DNA of 64,000 nucleotides, from contig NZ_FTOV01000002.1 of the NCBI RefSeq assembly GCF_900156825.1, positions 1 to 64,000 on the forward strand, given 5' to 3'. A model generated the notes under the pieces. That model did no database searches. It saw nothing but the letters and a program-made list of their open reading frames with translations, and was not told the DNA's origin. Positions within the stretch are counted from its first letter, which is position 1, and the number at the start of each line of letters is the position of its first letter. Below, one piece after another: positions 1 through 14,122 of the stretch. The DNA is from Chryseobacterium gambrini. Lineage in GTDB: Bacteria; Bacteroidota; Bacteroidia; Flavobacteriales; Weeksellaceae. A program made the position numbers and the translations under genes.

Positions 1-1961
1 ACCGGAGTGTACGTCGTTACATTGGCAGCAGTAAGATCAAAAAAACCTTTTCCGTTGTACTGACAGGCTTTGATGGTGGTGTCCGTTAAAATAAACGGAA
101 CCACTGTAAGATTTAAAGTTACCTTTTCACAGTCAATAAATTCGGGAGCATTTCCGCAGAACTGGTAAACAATAGTATCGGGACCTAAATATCCCGGATT
201 CGGGATATAGGTAATCTGTCCTGCGCCGTTTACCGTTGCAGTACCGTTTGTCGGATAGGTAAGGATGGTTACCGTACTTGCAACAGGCGTCTGTGTTGTG
301 GTGAACGAGAAAGCGGGCGTAATGACTTTCGTTGCACAGGCATTAAGAGCTGCTGTTGTATTTCTTACACATGAAAAAACTTTATAGATGGGAGTGGTAA
401 CGGGTGGACAGGTTCCCATGGTTACTTTCACGGTATAGTTTCCTGCTACGGTAGGCGTATAAACGTTTTGTGTTGCTCCGGTGATCGGGTTTCCGTTCAG
501 ATACCACTGGTAGCTTTCATAGCTGTCGTCAACCTCAAGAATAATTCCCGGGACACATTCTCCTGTTTTTTTCGCAATAATCGGAATGGAAGAGAATCCC
601 GCGAAATATCCTCCGTACCCTGCAGTGCTGTATCCACCGTTCACTCCTGCTGTTACCGCTTTGGTGGAAGTTACCACTACATTTCCTGTAGGATTATCGA
701 TGGCATAGGTTACCCAGTTGGTATTTCCGGTTAACGGATAAGGTCCCTGAGCAGCGGTTGGAGTGGTTGCCGCTCCGCCGTCGATGCTGTACGTAACAGC
801 AGCACCTGCTTCAGTTAAGATGTTTAATTTCAGAGTAACTCCGGAAACACCCGGCATTTCGTTGATCTTTCCGATCTCGTCAATTTTTCTCGGCAGGAAG
901 CAGTTCAATGGTGGAATATAATTGTAACCTCCATTGTATGAGAATCCCTGAATCCCTATAAACTGATATAAGTAAACATTTTTAGAAGTGGAAATGAACA
1001 TATTGAAATGTCCGCTTCCCGCGGTTTGTTCTACATAACTTGTTTCGTTAATTCTATACCATTCCCCTTCATTAATTGTGGCAACAGGTGTTGTGGCTCC
1101 ATTAATAAAAATCTGGGTATTGTCTTCTGTGGCAATAACAATTCCACCTTCCATATTCAAGGTAGGATTGGTTGCTTTGGTTTTTACCATGGCAAATGTG
1201 TTCCCCAGTCTTTCCACCGGAACCGACTGGTCCATAATTAAATCTGAACCATCGGAAGTATTTGTCGCAAAGTTTCCGTTAGCATTTCCATTGGTAAGGG
1301 TTACAGGTTTATCTGAAACGACTTTGGCACCGATGAAGCCGTTTAAATTAGCTGATGTTAAATGATTTCCTGCTAAAATATAAGACTGTCCTTTATTTAA
1401 AGTAAATGTCTGTGAATTTCCTCCGGGCGTACCTCCGATAAAAACTAAACCTGCAGTATTCCAGGATACGGTAACTGATGTATTGTCTTCCGTAGCCAAA
1501 ATCCCTGCTGTAAAATTGTTAGTGGAGCTGCTCGCTGTACTGGGAGTTGCTGCTACATAGAATTTTTTTCCGATTCCTGCTTTACCTTTTGACGTGATAA
1601 TTTCTCCATGTGCCGTCTGAGCGGATCTTAAGGTACAGTAAAACGGTTTATCTCCTTTGAGGTATAATCCTTTTGTTCCAACCGTAAAGGCGTCTGCGGC
1701 GCTGGTTCCATTGATGAGATTGGCGGCAATAGCGTAAGAAACGGGTGATCCTTTTGCAACGGAAACTGTCTGAATCAGGTTATTGTTATTGTATATTCTT
1801 ACGTCAAACGGAGTGGTTGAGTCCGTAGAAAGATATACAGCATTGTTATATCCTGTAACCGATGTATAAAACGGAGCAATCCAGTGATCGGTGTCTCTTT
1901 GGGCAAAAAGCGTGTTAATCGTACAAAATATCAATACGAAAGACAGTAGAAATCTTCTCAT
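1..1961 (-). CDS. Large secreted IgGFc-binding-like protein, T9SS cargo family (C-terminus beyond window)
   Basis: Open reading frame from an ATG at 1959-1961 that runs off the window, giving about 653 N-terminal residues. It starts with a signal peptide (MRRFLLSFVLIF..., cleavage after LFAQ) followed by DTDHWIAPF, the same mature start as the two next genes upstream. Residues of about 25-450 resemble the IgGFc-binding-protein N-terminal region (repeated TEDNT, MDQSVPVERLGNTF, YNYIPPLNCFLP segments), then comes an Ig-like stretch with paired cysteines. The family's usual T9SS tail lies outside the window, so secretion by T9SS is inferred from the paralogs. A TAnnTTTG box (TAAATTTG) lies at 1991-1984. 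Probably a cell-surface or released adhesin-like protein; ligand unknown. Confidence 0.8.
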   Translation of the reverse strand, partial: MRRFLLSFVLIFCTINTLFAQRDTDHWIAPFYTSVTGYNNAVYLSTDSTTPFDVRIYNNNNLIQTVSVAKGSPVSYAIAANLINGTSAADAFTVGTKGLYLKGDKPFYCTLRSAQTAHGEIITSKGKAGIGKKFYVAATPSTASSSTNNFTAGILATEDNTSVTVSWNTAGLVFIGGTPGGNSQTFTLNKGQSYILAGNHLTSANLNGFIGAKVVSDKPVTLTNGNANGNFATNTSDGSDLIMDQSVPVERLGNTFAMVKTKATNPTLNMEGGIVIATEDNTQIFINGATTPVATINEGEWYRINETSYVEQTAGSGHFNMFISTSKNVYLYQFIGIQGFSYNGGYNYIPPLNCFLPRKIDEIGKINEMPGVSGVTLKLNILTEAGAAVTYSIDGGAATTPTAAQGPYPLTGNTNWVTYAIDNPTGNVVVTSTKAVTAGVNGGYSTAGYGGYFAGFSSIPIIAKKTGECVPGIILEVDDSYESYQWYLNGNPITGATQNVYTPTVAGNYTVKVTMGTCPPVTTPIYKVFSCVRNTTAALNACATKVITPAFSFTTTQTPVASTVTILTYPTNGTATVNGAGQITYIPNPGYLGPDTIVYQFCGNAPEFIDCEKVTLNLTVVPFILTDTTIKACQYNGKGFFDLTAANVTTYTP

Positions 1962-2042
1962 ATATAATTAATTATGATTTCTACAAATTTAAAATAATAT
2001 TTAATAAATGTTAACGAAAAATAAAAGAAAGTTTAAAAAATA

Positions 2043-5000
2043 TTAACGATTCTTAATCAATAGCCATCCGGAATACGAAACCGGTAATTTGGTATCGGGT
2101 TCATTCCATTTTAATAAATACCAATATGTACCTGTTGATAAGGGTCTTCCGTTAATTTTTCCGTCCCAGGTGTAATTTTTATCTGACGATCTGTATACCG
2201 GAGCTCCGTAACGGTCTACGACTTCGATTGAAACATTTTGTTTAATTCTTAGGTCGGAATAATCCAGTATGTCGTTAAGTCCATCTCCATTCGGAGTAAT
2301 CGCATTGATAAGATTTAATACTAAAAATTCTTTAACAACCGGAGAACATCCGTCTTTACTTAAAACATAAACAGTATGCATTCCTCTGGAAAGACCTGTA
2401 AAAATATTAGATGTCTGATAGTCTATTCCGTTTAATGAATATTGATATGGAGGAGTTCCTCCGGCAACGGTAACGGTAGCATTATATCCGGAAACTTCAA
2501 TTTTAGAAATAACGGGAGATTCAGCTGTTGTGATCTTCACATACTGTCTGTACACACATCCGTTGAATCCAAGGTCTACATAATAATTTCCTGCTCCGGC
2601 AATAATGGATTGTGTAGTTGCTCCGGTACTCCAGGAATAAGATGTAAATCCTGCACCTGCATCTAATGTTGTTGTGTCATTAAGGCATACCACTTTATCG
2701 GCAAGTCTGGTAGATTTTTTCGGTGTTTTTAAATTGATTGTTAAAACGCCTGTACTCGGACATTCTGTAGCGGAAGTAAATCTGATGTAGAAGGTACTTA
2801 TGGCAGAAATAGTCTGGTTCGGTGAAATAGCATTGGTTCCCGCCTGTGCATTAGCCAATGTAGAGTAGAATGTAAGACTTACTCCTGCATTCGCCGTAAA
2901 AAGATTTTTATAATCATTTAAATTTACCGCTTCAGAGCCACTGATGTCACTGTCACAGATATCTGTTGCTGCATTTCCTGTAATTAAGGTAATTTTGTTT
3001 CCTATGGTAAAGTTAATCTGACCAAAAACAGCAGGACAGCTTCCGGTAAGTGCATCCACCCTCACATAAACAGTGGTATTGGCTGTGTAAGTCCAGTTTG
3101 CAGGAAGCGTATTGTTATTACCCGCATTGGCATCAGCTTGAAGTAAATAATATCTTACATTGAAATTTGCAGAATTGGTGACAATAACAGGAGTGATGCT
3201 TGGGAAATTTACATTCACGATGCCATCAAAATTATCATCGCAAAGCGTTGCGTTATAATTGCCTGTATTGATGTTTGGAGAAGGGGTTGTTGTTAAAGTA
3301 ATCTGTGCTACTTTTTTACACCCGTAAGAAGATGTTACGTTTGCATAAATCGTTCCAGCCGGTCCTGAATAATTTCCGGGTGCTGCAATTGGAGTTCCTG
3401 TTAATGCTGCATTAGTAAAATACTGTACCGTAGTTCCCGAATCTGGTGTTACATTAGCTGAGGTTAAGTTAAACGTTCCATTTCCGTTGGTGTCTACACA
3501 TGAAGTTAATGATGCGTTTGTTGTCTGCAAAACATCTGTATTGATAATAATTTTAAAATATTCAAAGCTTGCAGGACTTCCGTTTCCTTCTATGTAGTAA
3601 ATGAAACTATCTGTTGTATCTGCTGTAAGTCCTGCATTGGGAGTATAGGTAATTTGCCCCGTTGCAGAATTAACGGTTGCTGTTCCGGAAGTAGGAGCTA
3701 AAATAATGCTTGTATTACCCGGAACAATAGCCTGTGTAGAATTTGTGAATACAGGTGTAATCACTTTTGTATTGCATGAACCAATGTTATACGTTGTCGT
3801 TGTGATCGGAGGACACAATGTATAGGAATAGGCATCAGTAAGCAAAGAACCACAATTGTTTTTAGAAACCATACAGGTATAGTTTCCTGCGCCGTATAAT
3901 TCAGGATTGATGGAATATGAAGTGGCTCCCGGAATAGGATTTCCATTCAGATACCATTGATAATTATCGTACGTATTGTCTACCTGTAGTAAAATTCCGA
4001 GATAGCAATCTCCTGTTTTTGAAATCACAGGGACAGAAGAAAATCCTGCGAAATATCCTCCATATCCAACTGCTCCGCTTCCCGCCGCAATTCCTGCCGT
4101 TACGGATTTTGTAGAGTTAACGGTAATGGTGCCAGTAATATTAGGAACAGTATAGGTTACCCAGTTAGGATTTCCGTTTACAGGATAAGGTCCGTTAACT
4201 GTAGCAATCGGATTTCCGTTTAAAGTTACGGTTGCTCCGGTTTGGGTGATAATATTGAGACGGGTGTTAAATGTCTGATTCCCGATTTGATTGATAAATC
4301 CTATTTCATCTACTTTGTTAGGCATAAAGCAACTCAAAGGCGGGATGAAATTCATTCCTCCTGTAGCGTATTCATTGCCTCCGGTTGTAGATGAAACTCC
4401 TGCTAATAACTGATAAACATAGATGTTGTTATTGGCAGAAATGCTCATATTGTAATTGTCTCCGGTTCCGTGCTGTATATAATTATTACTTGGAACCATA
4501 TAATACTGTCCCTCATTCAGTGTAATTCCTGTAGCAATGCCGTTAATTGTAATTTGGGTGTTGTTTTGTGTTGCCACAATCAGCGCGGTTTCCATTTCGG
4601 AAAGTATGGTTCCGTTTCCCTTCACCACAACAAACTCTTTTCCCAGTCTTTCTACAGGAGCTGCCTGATCCATAAGAATATCATTGTTGGTGAAATTTAA
4701 ATTGGTATAAATTCCGTTAAAATTTCCGTTGGTAACGGAAATCGGTTTCGAAGATTGTATTTTCGCCCCGATTAATCCGTCAAGATTCACTGCAGAATCT
4801 GTACTTAATGCATCTACGATATAGGATTCTCCTTTATTTAAGGTAAATGTTTTTGTGGGGCTGGAAGATCCGTCAGAAAAAACAACATTGGGATTATATC
4901 CTGATATCACAACATTAGTATTGTCTTCTGTAGCAGTAACTCCTATAGTGGAGTTGACATAAGTTGCAGCACCGGTAATAGGTGCCATTCCTACGTAGAA

Positions 5001-5399
5001 CGTTTTTCCTAATCCTGCTAAACCTTTAGAGGTAATAATTTCAGCATGGCTTGGGACAGAAAATCTATAATTGGCGAAGAATTTTTTTGTTCCTTTCAGG
5101 TAAACTCCCATTGAATTCGGACTAAATAAATCCGATGGATTAGTAGTGATTAAAAAACTGTTTGGAATACTTACCTGAGCAGGATTTCCTTTACTCACCT
5201 GTACTGTGGTATAAAGAGCATTGCTATTATAAATTTGCACACTGAAGGGAGTGGTTTCATTGGTGGATAAATATAAATATCCCTGAAGATTCCCTGTACC
5301 AGACTTTGAAGCCATTGGAGCAAACCAATGATCGGTGTCAAGCTGTGCATTGAATAATAGACAAAGAAATGTACAAATGGTTAGTAAAAGTTTTTTCAT
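2043..5399 (-). CDS. Large secreted IgGFc-binding-like protein with T9SS type B sorting domain (1118 aa)
   Basis: The start is set at the ATG of MKKLLLTICTF (5397-5399). A longer reading from a TTG at 5420 would begin inside the promoter box TACATTTG (5425-5418), so it is unlikely. Order of parts: signal peptide (about 19 residues, ends NAQ); IgGFc-binding-like region (about 20-440); Ig-like segment (YQWYLNGNPIPG); one copy of the 83-residue repeat that is expanded in the next gene; a second Ig-like module (WSTGATTQSI); and from about residue 1030 the gliding-motility-associated C-terminal domain with NAITPNGDGLND. That last domain is the type B T9SS signal, so the protein should cross the outer membrane by T9SS. 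The family's role is inferred to be surface binding or adhesion; no catalytic motif is visible. Confidence 0.88.
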   Translation of the reverse strand: MKKLLLTICTFLCLLFNAQLDTDHWFAPMASKSGTGNLQGYLYLSTNETTPFSVQIYNSNALYTTVQVSKGNPAQVSIPNSFLITTNPSDLFSPNSMGVYLKGTKKFFANYRFSVPSHAEIITSKGLAGLGKTFYVGMAPITGAATYVNSTIGVTATEDNTNVVISGYNPNVVFSDGSSSPTKTFTLNKGESYIVDALSTDSAVNLDGLIGAKIQSSKPISVTNGNFNGIYTNLNFTNNDILMDQAAPVERLGKEFVVVKGNGTILSEMETALIVATQNNTQITINGIATGITLNEGQYYMVPSNNYIQHGTGDNYNMSISANNNIYVYQLLAGVSSTTGGNEYATGGMNFIPPLSCFMPNKVDEIGFINQIGNQTFNTRLNIITQTGATVTLNGNPIATVNGPYPVNGNPNWVTYTVPNITGTITVNSTKSVTAGIAAGSGAVGYGGYFAGFSSVPVISKTGDCYLGILLQVDNTYDNYQWYLNGNPIPGATSYSINPELYGAGNYTCMVSKNNCGSLLTDAYSYTLCPPITTTTYNIGSCNTKVITPVFTNSTQAIVPGNTSIILAPTSGTATVNSATGQITYTPNAGLTADTTDSFIYYIEGNGSPASFEYFKIIINTDVLQTTNASLTSCVDTNGNGTFNLTSANVTPDSGTTVQYFTNAALTGTPIAAPGNYSGPAGTIYANVTSSYGCKKVAQITLTTTPSPNINTGNYNATLCDDNFDGIVNVNFPSITPVIVTNSANFNVRYYLLQADANAGNNNTLPANWTYTANTTVYVRVDALTGSCPAVFGQINFTIGNKITLITGNAATDICDSDISGSEAVNLNDYKNLFTANAGVSLTFYSTLANAQAGTNAISPNQTISAISTFYIRFTSATECPSTGVLTINLKTPKKSTRLADKVVCLNDTTTLDAGAGFTSYSWSTGATTQSIIAGAGNYYVDLGFNGCVYRQYVKITTAESPVISKIEVSGYNATVTVAGGTPPYQYSLNGIDYQTSNIFTGLSRGMHTVYVLSKDGCSPVVKEFLVLNLINAITPNGDGLNDILDYSDLRIKQNVSIEVVDRYGAPVYRSSDKNYTWDGKINGRPLSTGTYWYLLKWNEPDTKLPVSYSGWLLIKNR

Positions 5400-5417
5400 A
5401 TTTCTCAATAAGGGATG

Positions 5418-5425
5418 CAAATGTA
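5418..5425 (-). promoter_or_regulatory. -7 promoter box TACATTTG of the 1118-aa secreted protein gene
   Basis: Matches the Bacteroidota -7 consensus TAnnTTTG, 19 bases before the chosen ATG. The flanking bases (AATAAGGG.TGCAAAT.TAAG on the plus strand) are shared with the promoter of the next paralog at 9705-9712, so the promoter was duplicated with the gene. No clear -33 element seen. Confidence 0.5.
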
Positions 5426-5594: not shown

Positions 5595-8500
5595 TTATTC
5601 TCTGTTTTTTATTAAAATCCATCCGGAGTAGGAAACCGGAAGTTTTGTATCAGGTTCAATCCATTTTAAAATATACCAGTAAGTTCCCGTTGGAAGAGGT
5701 CGCCCTCCCGATTTTCCGTCCCAGATATAACTTTTATCTGTGGATTTATAAACAGCAGCTCCATATCTGTCTGAAATTTCAATCGACACGTTTTGTTTTA
5801 TTTTCAGATCAGAATAATTGAGAACATCATTGATGCCGTCTCCGTTCGGGGTAATTGCATTGATGATATTTACAATTAAAAACTCCTTAACCACAGGTGA
5901 ACAGCCATCTTTTCCAAGTACATAAACGGTATGAATTCCTCTTGAAAGACCGATAAATGTATTGGAAGTCTGATAATCTATTCCGTTTAACGAGTACTGA
6001 TAAGGGGGTGTTCCGCCTGTAACATTTACAGTCGCATTAGAAGCCGTTACGTTGATGCTGGTGATTGTCGGAGCCTGCGAAGTCGTCACATTTACATACT
6101 GACGATAAACACAACCGTTAAAACCTAAATCTACATAATACGTTCCCGCACCGGCAAGAATGGTCTGAGTCGTTGCTCCTGTACTCCAAGTGTAAGAACT
6201 GAATTCCGCACCCGGATCCAATACCACTTTTTCTGTGGAACAAACCACTTTGTCAGTAAGCTGACTGGATTTTTTAGGCGATTTAAGCGTTACATTAATT
6301 ATTCCTGTATTCGGACATTCAGTTCCGCTTACAAATCTTACATAGAACGTTTTTGGCGAAGTAATGGTTTGGTTTGCAGGAATTGTATTAATACCGTTTT
6401 GAGCATCTGCTAAAGTGGCATGAAAAGTTAAAGTAATGGCAGGATTAGTGGTAAATAAATTTTTATAGTCATTAAGATTTACGTTTTCAGAACCGTTAAG
6501 ATCATTATCGCAAACATCCATATTCACGACGTTGGTAAGCAATGTGATCTTATTTCCGATTTTAAAATTAATCTGTCCGAAAGCCGGAGGACAACTTCCT
6601 CCCACTGTATCTACTCTTACATAAACGGTTGTATTTGCTGTATACGTCCAGTTTACAGGCAGAGTGTTGCTATTTCCGGCATTTGCATCTGTCTGATTCA
6701 AATAATATCTTACCGTAAAATTCGCAGCATTGGTAACAATCTGAGGGGTTACGGTTGAAAAATTCACGTTAACGATACCGTCAAAATTATCATCACAAAG
6801 ACTCGCATTATAATTTGCGGTGTTAATATTAGGCGATGGAGTGGTTGTTAAAGTAATCTGTGCCTGTCTGGAACATCCATTCGCAGAAGTAATGTTTGCA
6901 TAAATAATTCCCGCCGATCCTGAATAATTCGCAGGGTTTGTAATCTGTCCGGTTAAATTAGAATTGGTAAAATAAGTTATCGTAGTTCCCGGATCAGAAG
7001 AAACGTTGGCTGTGGTTAAATTATAAGTTCCGTTTCCGTTGGTTCCTGCGCACGAAGATAAAGTAGCATTCGTAACAGTAGGCAAAGGATTTACCGTTAA
7101 AATAATCTGAGCTGCTTTTGAACAGCCTGCTGCAGAAGTTACATTGGCATAAATAATTCCAGAAGTTCCCGAATAATTCGCAGGGTTTGCAATCTGTCCG
7201 GTTAAATTAGAATTGGTAAAATAAGTTACCGTAACTCCCGGATCAGAAGAAACGTTAGCTGAAGTTAAATTAAAAGTTCCGTTTCCGTTGGTTCCTGCGC
7301 AAGATGTTAAAGTCGCGTTATTCGTATTGGGTAAAGAATTTACCGTTAAAGTGATCTGAGCGGTTTTCGAACAACCGTTTGCAGAAGTTACATTCGCATA
7401 AATAATTCCTGAAGGACCTGAATAGGTTGCAGGATTAGTTATTTGTCCTGTCAGATTAGAATTCGTAAAATACGTCACCGTAATTCCCGGATCAGAAGAA
7501 ACGTTGGCAGAAGTTAAATTGAACGTTCCGTTTCCACCTGTTCCCGTACATGAAGCCAGAGAAACATTATTAACATTCGGTAAAGCATTTAAAGTTAATG
7601 TAATCTGAGCGGTTTTTGAACAGCCGTACTGTGAAGTCACATTGGCATAAACAGTTCCTGCCGGTCCGGAATAGTTCGCAGGATTTGCAATCTGTCCGGT
7701 TAAATTAGAATTGGTAAAATAAGTTACCGTAACTCCCGGATCAGAAGAAACATTTACAGAAGTCAGATTGTAAGTTCCGTTTCCGTTGGTTCCTGCACAG
7801 GATGCCAGAGAACCGTTGTTTATCTGTAAAACATTTGTATTAATAATGATTTTAAAATATTCAAAATCAAAAGGATTTCCATTCCCCTGAACATAATATA
7901 TAAAATTATCAGTAGTGTTCGTTGCAGAAGGATTGGGTGTATAAGTAATTTGTCCTGTTGTTGGATTTACCGTAGCAGTTCCCGATGTAGGCGGTGAAAT
8001 GATACTGGTAAGCGATGGAACGATGGTTTGCGTAGAGTTCGTAAACGAGGGAGTAATCACTTTTGTGTTACAAGACCCGATATTGTAGGTTGTTGTAGAA
8101 ATAGGAGGACATAAAGTATAGCTGTAAACTCCGGTTAATCTGGTTTCACAGTTGTTTTTTGTAATTAAACAGGTATAATCTCCGGCTCCGTATAATTCTG
8201 GATTGATTGAGAAAGAAGTGGCTCCAGCAATCGGATTTCCATTTAAAAACCACTGATAAGAATCGTAATTGTTATCAACCTGCAAAAGAATTCCTGCGTA
8301 GCAGTCGCCGGTTTTTGTAATGGCGGGAACGGATGAAAATCCTGCAAAATATCCACCATAACCTACTGCGCCGTTTCCTGCTGCAATTCCCGCTGTAACA
8401 GGAAGCGTAGAATTTACTGTAATATTTCCGTTAACTCCCTGAAGAGAATAGGTTACCCAACCCGGATTTCCCGTTACTGGATAAGGTCCGCTGATCGCGC

Positions 8501-9686
8501 CGATGGCACTTCCGTTAAACGTTACATTGGCTCCTGTCTGGGTAATGATATTAAGTTTGGTATCAAAAGAATTGCTTCCTATTTTATTGATAAAGCCGAT
8601 TTCGTTAATTTCTTTCGGTAAAAAACAGCTTAAAGGCGGGATGAAATTCATTCCGCCGGTTGCATATACTGTACTTCCTGAAGTTCCTGCAAGAAGTTGG
8701 TAAACATAGACATTATTATTAGCAGAAATACTCATGTTGTAATGTCCGTTCCCCTGATTGATATAGCTGGTTCCCTGAACAATGTAATATTGTCCTGCAT
8801 TCAGTGTAACACTTCCTAAAAGGTTTCCGTTTACCGTAAGTTTGGTGTTGTTTTCCGTGGCGATTACTAAAGCAGCTTCCATTCCGGAATTGGCAGGTCC
8901 GTTTCCTTTTACCAAGGCAAATGTTTTTCCTAATCTTTCCACAGGAACAGCCTGATCCATCAGAATATCTACATTGCTGTTATTTTGGGTGGTATAAATA
9001 CTGTTGAAATTACCGTTGGTTACCGAAATAGGTTTGTTGGCAGTAATTTTTGCACCTACTAATCCTGTTAAATTACTTGAGGACAAATCACTCTGCGCTT
9101 CAATAATATATGATTTCCCTTTATTGATGGTAAACGTTCTTGTGGGCGATGAAGTACCGTCGGAGAAAATAACGTTCGGATTGTAGCCGGATAAGGTAAC
9201 GGTTGTATTGTCTTCCGTCGCAATAAATCCAATGGTTGAATTAACGTAAGGTTTTGCGGTTGTATTTGGGGCAACGCCTACGAAAAAGTTTTTCCCGATT
9301 CCTGCCAAACCTTTGGAAGTGATGATTTCTGCCTGATTGGGAACTGCAAATCTGAAATTGGCGAAGAATTTTTTAGAACCTTTTACCTGTAATCCCATTG
9401 ATCTTTGTGTAAAAAGATTGGATGGAGTAGAGGCAATCATATAATTGTTCGGAACTGTAACCTGTACCGGATTGTTTTTACTCACCTGAACAGTAGAAAA
9501 CACCGTATTGTTGTTGTAAATCTGAACCGAAAACGGAGTTGTTTCATTGGTGGATAAATACAGGTAGCATTCCGGAGTACCCTGAAGAGAGCTTGCGGAC
9601 ATTGGAGCAAACCAGTGTTCTGTATCCAATTGGGCATTAAGAATAAAATAAAAAAAAGAGCAAAAGATTAGTAGAAATTTTTTCAT
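5595..9686 (-). CDS. Large secreted IgGFc-binding-like protein with four 83-residue repeats and T9SS type B sorting domain (1363 aa)
   Basis: Close paralog of the gene that follows it on the minus strand. Start chosen at the ATG of MKKFLLIFCSFF (9684-9686); a TTG 21 bases further out lies inside the TAGATTTG box. Parts: signal peptide (ends LNAQ), IgGFc-binding-like region (about 20-440), Ig-like segment (YQWFLNGNPIAG), four tandem repeats at about 620-950 (each with SC.GT.GNGT, SSDPG, TYFTNSNLTGQI and GCS), a further Ig-like module, and the type B T9SS domain from about 1275 (NAITPNGDGIND). Secretion by T9SS follows from the tail; binding or adhesion is an inference from the N-terminal family. 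A terminator follows at 5543-5569, so it is probably transcribed apart from its neighbour. Confidence 0.88.
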   Translation of the reverse strand: MKKFLLIFCSFFYFILNAQLDTEHWFAPMSASSLQGTPECYLYLSTNETTPFSVQIYNNNTVFSTVQVSKNNPVQVTVPNNYMIASTPSNLFTQRSMGLQVKGSKKFFANFRFAVPNQAEIITSKGLAGIGKNFFVGVAPNTTAKPYVNSTIGFIATEDNTTVTLSGYNPNVIFSDGTSSPTRTFTINKGKSYIIEAQSDLSSSNLTGLVGAKITANKPISVTNGNFNSIYTTQNNSNVDILMDQAVPVERLGKTFALVKGNGPANSGMEAALVIATENNTKLTVNGNLLGSVTLNAGQYYIVQGTSYINQGNGHYNMSISANNNVYVYQLLAGTSGSTVYATGGMNFIPPLSCFLPKEINEIGFINKIGSNSFDTKLNIITQTGANVTFNGSAIGAISGPYPVTGNPGWVTYSLQGVNGNITVNSTLPVTAGIAAGNGAVGYGGYFAGFSSVPAITKTGDCYAGILLQVDNNYDSYQWFLNGNPIAGATSFSINPELYGAGDYTCLITKNNCETRLTGVYSYTLCPPISTTTYNIGSCNTKVITPSFTNSTQTIVPSLTSIISPPTSGTATVNPTTGQITYTPNPSATNTTDNFIYYVQGNGNPFDFEYFKIIINTNVLQINNGSLASCAGTNGNGTYNLTSVNVSSDPGVTVTYFTNSNLTGQIANPANYSGPAGTVYANVTSQYGCSKTAQITLTLNALPNVNNVSLASCTGTGGNGTFNLTSANVSSDPGITVTYFTNSNLTGQITNPATYSGPSGIIYANVTSANGCSKTAQITLTVNSLPNTNNATLTSCAGTNGNGTFNLTSANVSSDPGVTVTYFTNSNLTGQIANPANYSGTSGIIYANVTSAAGCSKAAQIILTVNPLPTVTNATLSSCAGTNGNGTYNLTTANVSSDPGTTITYFTNSNLTGQITNPANYSGSAGIIYANITSANGCSRQAQITLTTTPSPNINTANYNASLCDDNFDGIVNVNFSTVTPQIVTNAANFTVRYYLNQTDANAGNSNTLPVNWTYTANTTVYVRVDTVGGSCPPAFGQINFKIGNKITLLTNVVNMDVCDNDLNGSENVNLNDYKNLFTTNPAITLTFHATLADAQNGINTIPANQTITSPKTFYVRFVSGTECPNTGIINVTLKSPKKSSQLTDKVVCSTEKVVLDPGAEFSSYTWSTGATTQTILAGAGTYYVDLGFNGCVYRQYVNVTTSQAPTITSINVTASNATVNVTGGTPPYQYSLNGIDYQTSNTFIGLSRGIHTVYVLGKDGCSPVVKEFLIVNIINAITPNGDGINDVLNYSDLKIKQNVSIEISDRYGAAVYKSTDKSYIWDGKSGGRPLPTGTYWYILKWIEPDTKLPVSYSGWILIKNRE
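6824..7820 (-). repeat. Four tandem 249-bp in-frame repeats
   Basis: Within the 1363-aa secreted protein gene. A landmark (GGTTCCTGCG or close variant) recurs at 7041, 7290, 7539 and 7788, an exact period of 249 bases (83 codons). The copies differ at scattered positions, including silent ones, so they are not assembly artefacts of a perfect repeat. The paralog at 2043-5399 holds only one copy, about 3240-3520. Confidence 0.9.
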
Positions 9687-9704
9687 GTCTAATAATAAGG
9701 GCTG

Positions 9705-9712
9705 CAAATCTA
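9705..9712 (-). promoter_or_regulatory. -7 promoter box TAGATTTG of the 1363-aa secreted protein gene
   Basis: TAnnTTTG match 19 bases before the chosen ATG, in the same sequence surroundings as the box at 5418-5425. No convincing TTTG at the -33 position. Confidence 0.5.
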
Positions 9713-9879: not shown

Positions 9880-10704
9880 TTATAAGCTTACTCTTACAAA
9901 TCCTGTAACTTTAAGATCTCCGTTTACAGACTTCACATAATCAGCAACAGACATGCTGCTGTCTTTAATGAAATCCTGGTGTACCAAAGTATTGTCTTTG
10001 TAGAATCTCTGCATTTTACCTTTAAGGATATTATCGATAATGTTTGCAGGTTTACCTTCTTCTACAAGTTTGTGTCTTTCGATTTCCAATTCTTTATCAA
10101 TCGTTTCCTGAGAAACAGAAGTCTCATCAAGAGCAATTGGATTCATCGCAGCAGCCTGCATAGAAACAGATTTTGCAACTTCGTCTGCTCCTTCTACTTT
10201 TGCAGAAAGAGAAGTGATGGCAGCGATTTTGTTTCCAGCGTGGATGTAAGCTCCTAAATAAGGACCTGTAATTCTTTCGAATGCACCGATCTCGATTTTT
10301 TCACCGATAACACCTGTTTGCTCGATTAATTTTTCAGCAACAGTGATTCCGTGGAAATCTGTAGCCAATAATTCTTCTTTAGAAGCAGCAAAAATTGCCA
10401 TTTCAGCCAATTCATAAGCTAGCTCGATGAAAGCTTCGTTTTTACCTACGAAGTCAGTCTCACAGTTTAAAGAGATAATAGCACCTAACGTGTTATCTTC
10501 GTTTACTCTGGCGATTACTGCACCTTCAGTAGACTCTCTGTCAGCTCTGTTAGCAGCAACTTTCTGTCCTTTTTTTCTAAGGATATCTACCGCTTTTTCG
10601 AAATCTCCTTCAGCTTCAACTAAAGCTTTTTTGCAGTCCATCATACCTGCACCTGTTTGGTTTCTCAATTTTGCTACGTCTGCAGCAGCTGGTGTATAAG
10701 ACAT
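9880..10704 (-). CDS. tsf: Translation elongation factor Ts (274 aa)
   Basis: Guanine-nucleotide exchange factor that reloads EF-Tu with GTP in the cytoplasm. The N-terminal UBA-like part has the typical KLRNQTGAGMMDCKKALVEA segment, then FEKAVDILRKKG and the core with NCETDFVGKNEAF; length fits the long family form. In most bacteria tsf follows rpsB; here the upstream neighbour is a divergent unrelated gene, so tsf appears to have its own promoter (TATCTTTG at 10774-10767) and terminator. Identification is firm. Confidence 0.97.
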   Translation of the reverse strand: MSYTPAAADVAKLRNQTGAGMMDCKKALVEAEGDFEKAVDILRKKGQKVAANRADRESTEGAVIARVNEDNTLGAIISLNCETDFVGKNEAFIELAYELAEMAIFAASKEELLATDFHGITVAEKLIEQTGVIGEKIEIGAFERITGPYLGAYIHAGNKIAAITSLSAKVEGADEVAKSVSMQAAAMNPIALDETSVSQETIDKELEIERHKLVEEGKPANIIDNILKGKMQRFYKDNTLVHQDFIKDSSMSVADYVKSVNGDLKVTGFVRVSL

Positions 10705-12569: not shown

Positions 12570-12616
12570 TCTTGAAGTAAATTAAATCTTTCAAATTTAT
12601 GAAAAATTATCAAAAT

Positions 12617-14122
12617 CTATTTAAAATTATTGATGGCATTGTTTATTCTGGAGATAGTTTCCTCTTTTCCAAGAAGTTCCATGATGTCCGGAACATCTGG
12701 TCCTTTCAGTTCTCCAACCAACGATAAACGTAAAGGCATCATCACTTTACCCATTCCCAAACCTTTATTTTCCGCGAAATCATGAACCGTCTGCTTAAGA
12801 TTTTCAGCATTAAAATCAGCTTCTTCAAGATTTGAAGCCAATTCCCCTAAAATTGCCGAAGTTTCATCATTCCATGCTTTTTTAGATGCTTTTTCATCAT
12901 AAGAAGTGGGGGCTTCGAAGAAAAACTTTCCGTTTTCATAGATATCTTTTGGGAAAGTAGCTCTTTCCTTCATCAGCTTAATCACTTTTAACAGTTTGTC
13001 ATCTGACAATGTTAAATTTAAATCTGAATTTTTAAGAATATTCAGTAAATCTTCATCCGAAGTTTTCTGGATGTACTGATGATTGAACCATTCTGCTTTT
13101 TCCTTGCTGAATCTTGCTCCGGCTTTATGAACTTTATTCAGATCAAATTCTTTTGCCATTTCATCCAGAGATAAAATTTCTTTATCGTCTGCAGGAGACC
13201 AGCCCAAAAGTGCAACCATATTGATGAAAGCTTCAGGCAGATATCCGCTTTCTCTGTATCCTTTGGAAACATTTCCTGTTGCAGGATCTGTAAAATTCAA
13301 AGGAAATACAGGGAACCCGAATTTATCGCCGTCTCTTTTGCTTAGTTTTCCTTTTCCTTCAGGCTTCAAAATCAAAGAAAGATGGGCAAACTGAGGCGCT
13401 TCCCAACCCATTGCTTCATATAATAAAGTATGCAGTCCCAGAGAAGGCAGCCATTCTTCACCACGGATAACGTGAGAAATTTCCATTTCGTGGTCATCAA
13501 TGATGTTGGCGAAATGATAAGTCGGCATTCCATCGTTTTTTACAAGAACTTTATCGTCTAAAGTATTGGTATTCACAGAAGAATTTCCTCTGATGATATC
13601 CACAAGATTTAATGTTCTGTCGATCGGCATTTTGAATCTCACAACATACGGCGTTTTTTCGTCCAGTAATCTCTGAACTTCCTCTTCAGAAAGTGCAATA
13701 CTGTTTCTCAAACGGTTTCTTGATTTATTGTCATAAGAAAAAACGTCTCCTCTTGCCTCATATTCTGCACGGATCGCGTCCAGTTCTTCTGCTGTATCAA
13801 AAGCGATATAAGCATAATCTGTTTTTAAGATCTGCTCTGTATATTTATCGTAAATATGTCTTCTTTCAGATTGTCTGTACGGAGCGAATGTTCCTCCTTT
13901 TTTCGGGCTTTCATCGGCAATAATTCCGCACCATTCAAGGGCTTCTTCAATGTATTCTTCTGCTCCTTCAACGTATCTTGCGGTATCTGTATCTTCAATT
14001 CTCAATACAAATTCACCTCCCTGGTTTTTAGCAAAAAGATAATCGTATAATGCGGTTCTTACGCCTCCTAAATGTAAAGGTCCCGTAGGACTTGGAGCAA
14101 AACGTACTCTTACTTTGTCCAT
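12617..14122 (-). CDS. gltX: Glutamate--tRNA ligase (501 aa)
   Basis: Class I aminoacyl-tRNA synthetase that charges tRNA-Glu. The start is the ATG of MDKVRVRFAPSPTG, seven codons inside the longest reading, since this puts the HIGH-type motif (HLGG, residues 17-20) at the usual distance. The second class I motif is KLSKR near residue 260. The C-terminal helical anticodon-binding part (GMGKVMMPLRLSLVG) is complete. A TAAATTTG box at 14148-14141 gives a short leader of roughly 15 bases. Confidence 0.97.
   Translation of the reverse strand: MDKVRVRFAPSPTGPLHLGGVRTALYDYLFAKNQGGEFVLRIEDTDTARYVEGAEEYIEEALEWCGIIADESPKKGGTFAPYRQSERRHIYDKYTEQILKTDYAYIAFDTAEELDAIRAEYEARGDVFSYDNKSRNRLRNSIALSEEEVQRLLDEKTPYVVRFKMPIDRTLNLVDIIRGNSSVNTNTLDDKVLVKNDGMPTYHFANIIDDHEMEISHVIRGEEWLPSLGLHTLLYEAMGWEAPQFAHLSLILKPEGKGKLSKRDGDKFGFPVFPLNFTDPATGNVSKGYRESGYLPEAFINMVALLGWSPADDKEILSLDEMAKEFDLNKVHKAGARFSKEKAEWFNHQYIQKTSDEDLLNILKNSDLNLTLSDDKLLKVIKLMKERATFPKDIYENGKFFFEAPTSYDEKASKKAWNDETSAILGELASNLEEADFNAENLKQTVHDFAENKGLGMGKVMMPLRLSLVGELKGPDVPDIMELLGKEETISRINNAINNFK

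Follow-up and report, generated by a model that had tools for sequence, protein, structure and literature searches.

Variation in repeat number is already well known in the surface proteins of Gram-positive pathogens and in hagA of Porphyromonas gingivalis. Among the former, the M protein of group A streptococci and the alpha C protein of group B streptococci are sortase-anchored, with repeats unrelated to the 83-residue unit considered here. According to the available part of PMC9704523, both vary in size by recombination between repeats within one gene, and this intragenic change of size is what they have in common with the present locus. The closest concept is that of the Periscope Proteins (SasG, Rib, and Sgo_0707). 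As described in the available parts of PMC8201768 and PMC9704523, these carry tandem folded domains of more than 50 residues, flanked by an N-terminal domain on one side and a C-terminal anchor on the other; their repeat number is variable, homologous recombination between repeats has been proposed as the cause, and length is thought to set their reach.

The nearest precedent found in the phylum Bacteroidota is hagA of P. gingivalis together with its gingipain relatives. HagA-type adhesins of this species are T9SS cargo, and Kozarov reportedly described variable hagA repeats in 1998. In hagA, rgpA, and kgp, direct repeats vary in number and modular domains are common to related genes, as presented in the available part of PMC5266723. 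These genes encode Bacteroidota surface adhesins, and they resemble those of the present locus in their variable direct repeats and in the domains shared among related genes. They differ in containing the cleaved adhesin domain and DUF2436, neither of which appears in the Pfam results, at E values up to 1, for genes A (3 families) and B (4 families) described below; furthermore, adjacent copies exchanging one array are not described in the available part of PMC5266723.

The locus reported here allows repeat-number variation to be followed genus-wide in Bacteroidota at one conserved place, with readable junctions and with exchange of the array between adjacent paralogs, the latter being new here. 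It thereby constitutes a tidy natural system for measuring stalk-length evolution. Among the matches listed by a search of open-access papers, none is evidently on this array or on PF17517 proteins as flavobacterial T9SS cargo, and the available part of PMC5808330 holds nothing on such repeats. The observations are probably best explained by stalk units of variable number, recombining within gene A and converted between the arrays of genes A and B.

Organisation of the locus

The window, i.e., the whole stretch of DNA analysed, comprises the first 64 kb of contig C16 from the Chryseobacterium gambrini genome (4.84 Mb, 51 contigs) and starts at contig base 1. By EF-Ts, the nearest named records are one Weeksellaceae metagenome record (96%) and five Chryseobacterium species (90-93%). 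Downstream of a conserved gene, presumably tsf, a cluster of paralogs is found on the minus strand, in the order gene A, gene B, and third paralog. The features are as follows:

9880..10704, minus strand: presumed tsf (elongation factor Ts), conserved neighbour anchoring the locus
5595..9686, minus strand: gene A, encoding a putative T9SS surface protein that carries four 83-residue units (domain searches, A/B alignment)
8388..9299, minus strand: PF17517 IgGFc_binding domain of gene A (residues 137-440; E 1.1e-40, 140.2 bits, cut-off 25.6)
7584..7832, minus strand: unit 1 of gene A (residues 626-708 of the TTG-started ORF; TRF, unit profile)
7335..7583, minus strand: unit 2 of gene A (TRF, unit profile)
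7086..7334, minus strand: unit 3 of gene A (TRF, unit profile)
6837..7085, minus strand: unit 4 of gene A (TRF, unit profile)
5610..5870, minus strand: C-terminal T9SS type B sorting domain of gene A (residues 1280-1366; CHU_C, 66 bits, cut-off 27; TIGR04131, 65.3 bits, cut-off 35)
2043..5399, minus strand: gene B, adjoining paralog with one unit (domain searches, A/B alignment)
3282..3533, minus strand: single unit of gene B (84 residues; 113 bits to the unit profile)
3..1967, minus strand: third paralog of the cluster, truncated by the contig end close to the beginning of its unit-like domain

The gene A ORF (5595-9707, 1370 residues) is counted from a TTG, and its likely start is the ATG at 9686, which is followed by a signal-peptide-like stretch. 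Both the start and the signal peptide were judged by eye, the candidate Sec signal peptide being the hydrophobic start that comes after MKK. The gene B ORF (2043-5420, 1125 residues) likewise begins with a TTG, with a likely ATG at 5399. In both proteins, a PF17517 domain lies close to the N-terminus and a T9SS type B domain forms the C-terminus, all above the curated cut-offs; gene B scores 141 bits to PF17517, 64.4 to TIGR04131, and 61.7 to CHU_C, against the same cut-offs as gene A.

The 83-residue repeat array

Gene A contains four in-frame units of exactly 83 codons each, arranged head to tail at 6837-7832. TRF places an array with a period of 249 bp at 6847-7796, with 3.8 copies, 79% matches, and 0% indels. 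Identity at a lag of 249 bases reaches 0.783 over the array, whereas 500 dinucleotide shuffles give 0.260 on average (sd 0.017) and 0.332 at most; it does not exceed 0.347 in 747-bp stretches taken at 50-base steps elsewhere in the window, away from the array. The repeat signal is far beyond chance. An earlier sequence-only reading had described exact 249-bp tandem repeats: the period holds, and the landmarks it gave (7041, 7290, 7539, and 7788) sit on the same motif in all four units, but the copies are not exact, as the six unit pairs display 73.9-80.7% DNA identity and 71.1-83.1% protein identity. It had also pointed out the single unit of the neighbouring gene, and in the protein alignment of A and B the three extra units of A indeed form one insertion, the remainder showing small gaps only.

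Differences at third codon positions, also noted in that reading, account for 195 of the 342 pairwise unit differences (57%). Together with dN/dS values of 0.10-0.28 (NG86; dS 0.5-1.3) and with the pairwise divergence given above, they indicate that the units are of old origin and under purifying selection. In register, at offsets of 249 bases or multiples thereof, exact repeats within the window array reach 68 bp at most, which also argues for old copies. Each unit has 28 invariant positions, including two cysteines, in ten aligned sequences. No Pfam or NCBIfam model scores above its cut-off on the array, and a search of PDB sequences with the whole-family profile, up to E 0.01, returns a single match, a tail protein aligned over ~40 profile positions outside the unit.

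The units might also be kept alike by selection for a ligand-binding site carried by each of them, in which case they would serve avidity and not spacing, and recombination would be incidental. The low dN/dS and the invariant positions with their two cysteines are in line with this proposal, but residues that keep the fold would alone produce the same conservation. Moreover, protein-level selection cannot account for the synonymous likeness of A and B arrays described below, and the lack of any annotated model above cut-off on the unit leaves it with no annotated binding function. Avidity is thus rather unlikely to be what keeps the units alike.

Unit number across the genus

The genomes compared are one per species, and the variation seen is therefore between species. 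An array match at E 0.001 is found in 173 of the 173 genomes of the genus that were searched, and two or more similar tandem units in 18, namely G000 (the window's own), G097, G026, G088, G094, G114, G127, G058, G014, G019, G049, G039, G013, G003, G103, G150, G024, and G062. Units were counted in fetched loci, and the absence of a similar array from unfetched genomes is inferred from the genus-wide search, whose listed matches go down to E 1.5e-25, the weakest of the 18 being at 1.9e-63. Contig ends truncate G150 and gene A of G039; G033, whose contig stops inside unit 1, is not counted among the 18 but may belong with them.

The fetched loci include 69 genes with strong units (70 bits or more to the profile), a count comprising contig-cut genes and two records present twice (L014 and G008 being one such record). 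Thirty-nine of them have one strong unit, 10 have two (most not adjacent), 3 have three, 15 have four, and 2 have seven. Repeating the count without HMMER filters changed the number of strong units in none of 226 ORFs. Tandem copy number in relatives is 1, 2, 3, 4, or 7. The sequence-only reading had proposed that unequal recombination varies the length of a surface protein and had named a uniform copy number in all relatives as the observation that would count against it; numbers do vary between species, and the tree and hybrid units described hereafter point the same way.

A tree of the N-terminal part, with the array left out, comprises 67 of the 69 strong-unit genes (a short G098 gene and the contig-cut G039 fragment being omitted), 63 of which have a state; gene A of G039, G130, L009, and G150 (the same contig as L009) have none, as a contig end cuts the gene. 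The tree requires at least 7 changes of contiguous unit number, as compared to 18.3 on average with shuffled labels. G003 (four units) and G043 (one unit) are sisters with full support, indicating that units have been gained or lost outside the window's clade as well. Nor is the expansion confined to A-type genes: an expanded A beside a single-unit B, as the sequence-only reading had it, holds in the window but not in general, since a B-type gene with four units is present in five relatives (G013, G014, G019, G039, and G049). Outside the genus, full-length array matches of 42% are found in G176 and G223, and in a family sample of 60 genomes some match occurs in 40, spanning 24 of 33 genera.

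Some loci depart from this general arrangement. In G013 (L126 12844-16977), the four-unit gene at the tsf locus is of B type by its N-terminus and no A-type gene was found there; A may have been lost. A 1688-residue protein of G159 (L199 2904-7967) carries a separate array of six diverged units (14-27 bits each), which was dropped by the default HMMER filter, probably due to biased composition, and recovered with filters off. In L137, L142, L143, L139, and L140, genes of 1301-1388 residues have one or two strong units and, in the same place, ~185 residues of other sequence; unlike domains seem to be inserted at the array position too.

Hybrid units in the seven-unit arrays

The closest relatives with seven units are G026 and G088. 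In both, units 1, 2, 6, and 7 are similar to window units 1-4 (93-95% identical), and three further units lie between the window-like units 2 and 6. Diagnostic sites, which tell the window units apart, identify unit 3 of G026 as a 3|2 hybrid, and units 4 and 5 of G088 as 4|3 and 4|2 hybrids, respectively. The first 124 bp of unit 4 of G026 are identical to those of unit 3; its 3' half carries diagnostic sites of units 4 and 1 without a close match to any window unit. For these four units, which were chosen after painting all 14 and have 7 to 12 diagnostic sites each, run tests give 0.0004, 0.043, 0.044, and 0.059 singly and 0/20,000 shuffles jointly, the painting having left out sites that match no reference unit.

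Hybrid units are the expected residue of crossing-over or conversion between unlike units. The G026 array also harbors a 200-bp exact repeat one unit apart, a sign of recent exchange. These features support a change in unit number by out-of-register recombination. Since the junctions differ between G026 and G088, the two arrays appear to have been expanded, or at least reshuffled, separately. In a core flank of 1736 bp, covered by one BLAST piece per genome, G000 groups with G097 at 14 sites, with G026 at 6, and with G088 at 5; in the N-terminal tree G000 joins G026 for gene A and G097 for gene B. These groupings of the four close relatives conflict with one another, and the seven-unit arrays may or may not have a single origin.

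Assembly and stability of unit number

The four-unit genomes of the window's clade are draft assemblies of 51 and 250 contigs, the seven-unit genomes are near-closed (5 and 1 contigs), and assembly collapse could explain this contrast of four with seven. Collapse is the less likely cause of the window's own four units: no stray unit is found elsewhere in the genome, the best match outside A and B being 42% identical, and the longest in-register exact repeat is the 68 bp mentioned above. Draft genomes can nevertheless break inside such arrays, and perhaps miscount them.

The nearest relative was determined for 77 units, from the 18 genes with three or more complete units. For 37 units, the largest class, it is the unit that occupies this position in the same gene of a different species, which suggests that turnover is not fast everywhere. 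For 15 of the 77 the adjacent paralog in the same genome provides it, again at the corresponding position, and for 12 it lies in the same array. Concerted evolution as a simple rule, with units always most alike within one array, was rejected on this basis, only 12/77 fitting it. In the unit tree, strong support is found on only 25 of 90 inner branches.

It is distinctly improbable that the extra units arose once, long ago, with a copy number essentially stable ever since and the differences among drafts being artefacts. The age of the window's units (dS 0.5-1.3), the predominance of same-position matches between related species (37/77), and the contigs of G033, G039, and G150 that end inside the array, indicating that short reads stumble here, would all suit such a history. 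Long contigs, however, carry different numbers, i.e., four units in G058, G003, and G013, seven in G088 and G026, and one in G028 and G046; the fully supported sisters G003 and G043 differ as well, and the hybrid units are unlike in the two seven-unit arrays.

Exchange between adjacent paralogs

Recombination between units within gene A is probably complemented by conversion between the arrays of A and B. In G019 and G049, both genes possess four units. The identity of A with B is ~57-80% outside the array for most of the length, and mostly 82-98% inside. Where A and B encode the same residue, 240 of 301 codons (80%) are identical in the G019 array and 365 of 713 (51%) outside it; the corresponding counts are 262/306 (86%) and 383/723 (53%) in G049, and 156/258 and 352/715 in G014. 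In a circular-shift control, in which overlapping windows are included, array-sized windows score at least as high as the array in 10/1014 (G019), 18/1029 (G049), and 36/973 (G014) cases. This high codon likeness within the arrays of G019 and G049, and its lower value outside, show that arrays are also copied between neighbours; the G014 signal is by itself weak, and its trace looks older.

The N-termini of the A and B genes of G019 and G049 fall in separate clades of the N-terminal tree, which likewise indicates copying of the array between the two genes. The single-unit B genes of the window, G026, G088, and G097 branch beside the four-unit B clade, in which the array of B would, on the simplest reading, have come from A. 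A/B identity also rises in short tracts near residues 1000-1040 (G019 and G049) and at about 320-400. Codon constraint or assembly chimerism, in place of gene conversion, is a highly improbable source of the A/B likeness: G019 and G049 are both drafts (70 and 110 contigs), but array third positions differ freely between orthologs (~30-65% identical for G000A vs G014A), two separate species show the likeness, each with its own sequence, and same-position A/B units still differ (84-94% identical in G019, 89-92% in G049), so that they are not one contig stretch used twice.

Predicted structure and proposed mechanism

Of five AlphaFold predictions of two units, one is confident (pLDDT 91.8, the other four being at about 40-42) and suggests an Ig-like fold of the 83-residue unit. 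Structural matches of the two-unit model include animal Ig-tandem adhesion proteins, which come first by Foldseek E-value, the grappling hook protein GhpA of Aureispira, and Rib tandems. The best VIA-align match is GhpA (PDB ID: 9fls), with a Z of 8.4 and 3.4 Å over 143 residues, a Z near 8 possibly meaning only a common arrangement. The model of whole gene B (mean pLDDT 71.3) is nearly all β and resembles strings of β-sandwiches; its single unit has a strand pattern closely similar to that of the two-unit model. GhpA (PDB ID: 9flp) is also its top Foldseek match by E-value, with a TM-score of 0.11. GhpA shares with the present proteins the tandem β-sandwiches in a giant protein (9fls, 9flp, and others), but is far larger, with ~20% identity.

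The comparison with Periscope Proteins is closer. Gene A has tandem 83-residue units between an N-terminal domain and a C-terminal anchor, the domain order fits, and the unit number varies; by analogy, the array would work like a Periscope-type variable stalk. According to the available part of PMC8201768, repeats were searched there at 80% identity or more. At the protein level, one of the six unit pairs of the window reaches this value, and 13 of 21 in G026; the window's array is therefore not filed as a member. Other differences are the T9SS setting and modest repeat identity here, the variation among strains there and between species (1-7 units) here, and the additional exchange between adjacent paralogs, the term 'gene conversion' being absent from the available part of PMC9704523. 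The string 'Bacteroid' is absent from the main text of both PMC8201768 and PMC9704523.

From these elements, a mechanism can be proposed. Genes A and B are predicted to encode long surface proteins, with a signal peptide, a PF17517 head, a string of β-sandwiches, and a T9SS type B C-terminus that would export and anchor the protein. Each 83-residue unit would form one stalk domain. Gene A would have gained its extra units through out-of-register homologous recombination between units, all gains keeping the reading frame, as the period equals 83 codons. The likeness of units also lets neighbouring genes convert each other's array, as in G019 and G049 and, with a weaker and older-looking trace, in G014; due to such conversion, units would both change in number and be re-homogenised in register across A and B. 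Added units would most simply lengthen the stalk, holding the N-terminal domain further from the cell. The likely benefit would be that reach, contact, or surface exposure can be tuned; the surface location and any effect on binding are likewise putative.

A more far-reaching reading takes the array as a stalk cassette prone to recombination and common to neighbouring T9SS surface-protein genes, expanded separately in sister species to seven units (through the 3|2 and unit-4 junctions in G026, and the 4|3 and 4|2 junctions in G088) and copied as a block from gene to gene. It is put forward tentatively, as possible but not favoured. If true, a bacterium could retune the lengths of several of its surface proteins at once.

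Two further observations concern the surroundings of the array. The contig starts inside the third paralog (1-1967 of the window), possibly at a break of the assembly within this repeated gene family; in G026 (L118 1840-4968 and 5071-8166) and G097 (L189 664-3792 and 3894-6980), the third paralog is a tandem pair with ~87-88% DNA identity. Beyond the cluster, a 20-bp direct repeat (1.9 copies, 83% matches) is located at 12593-12630 of the window, near the boundary of two genes.
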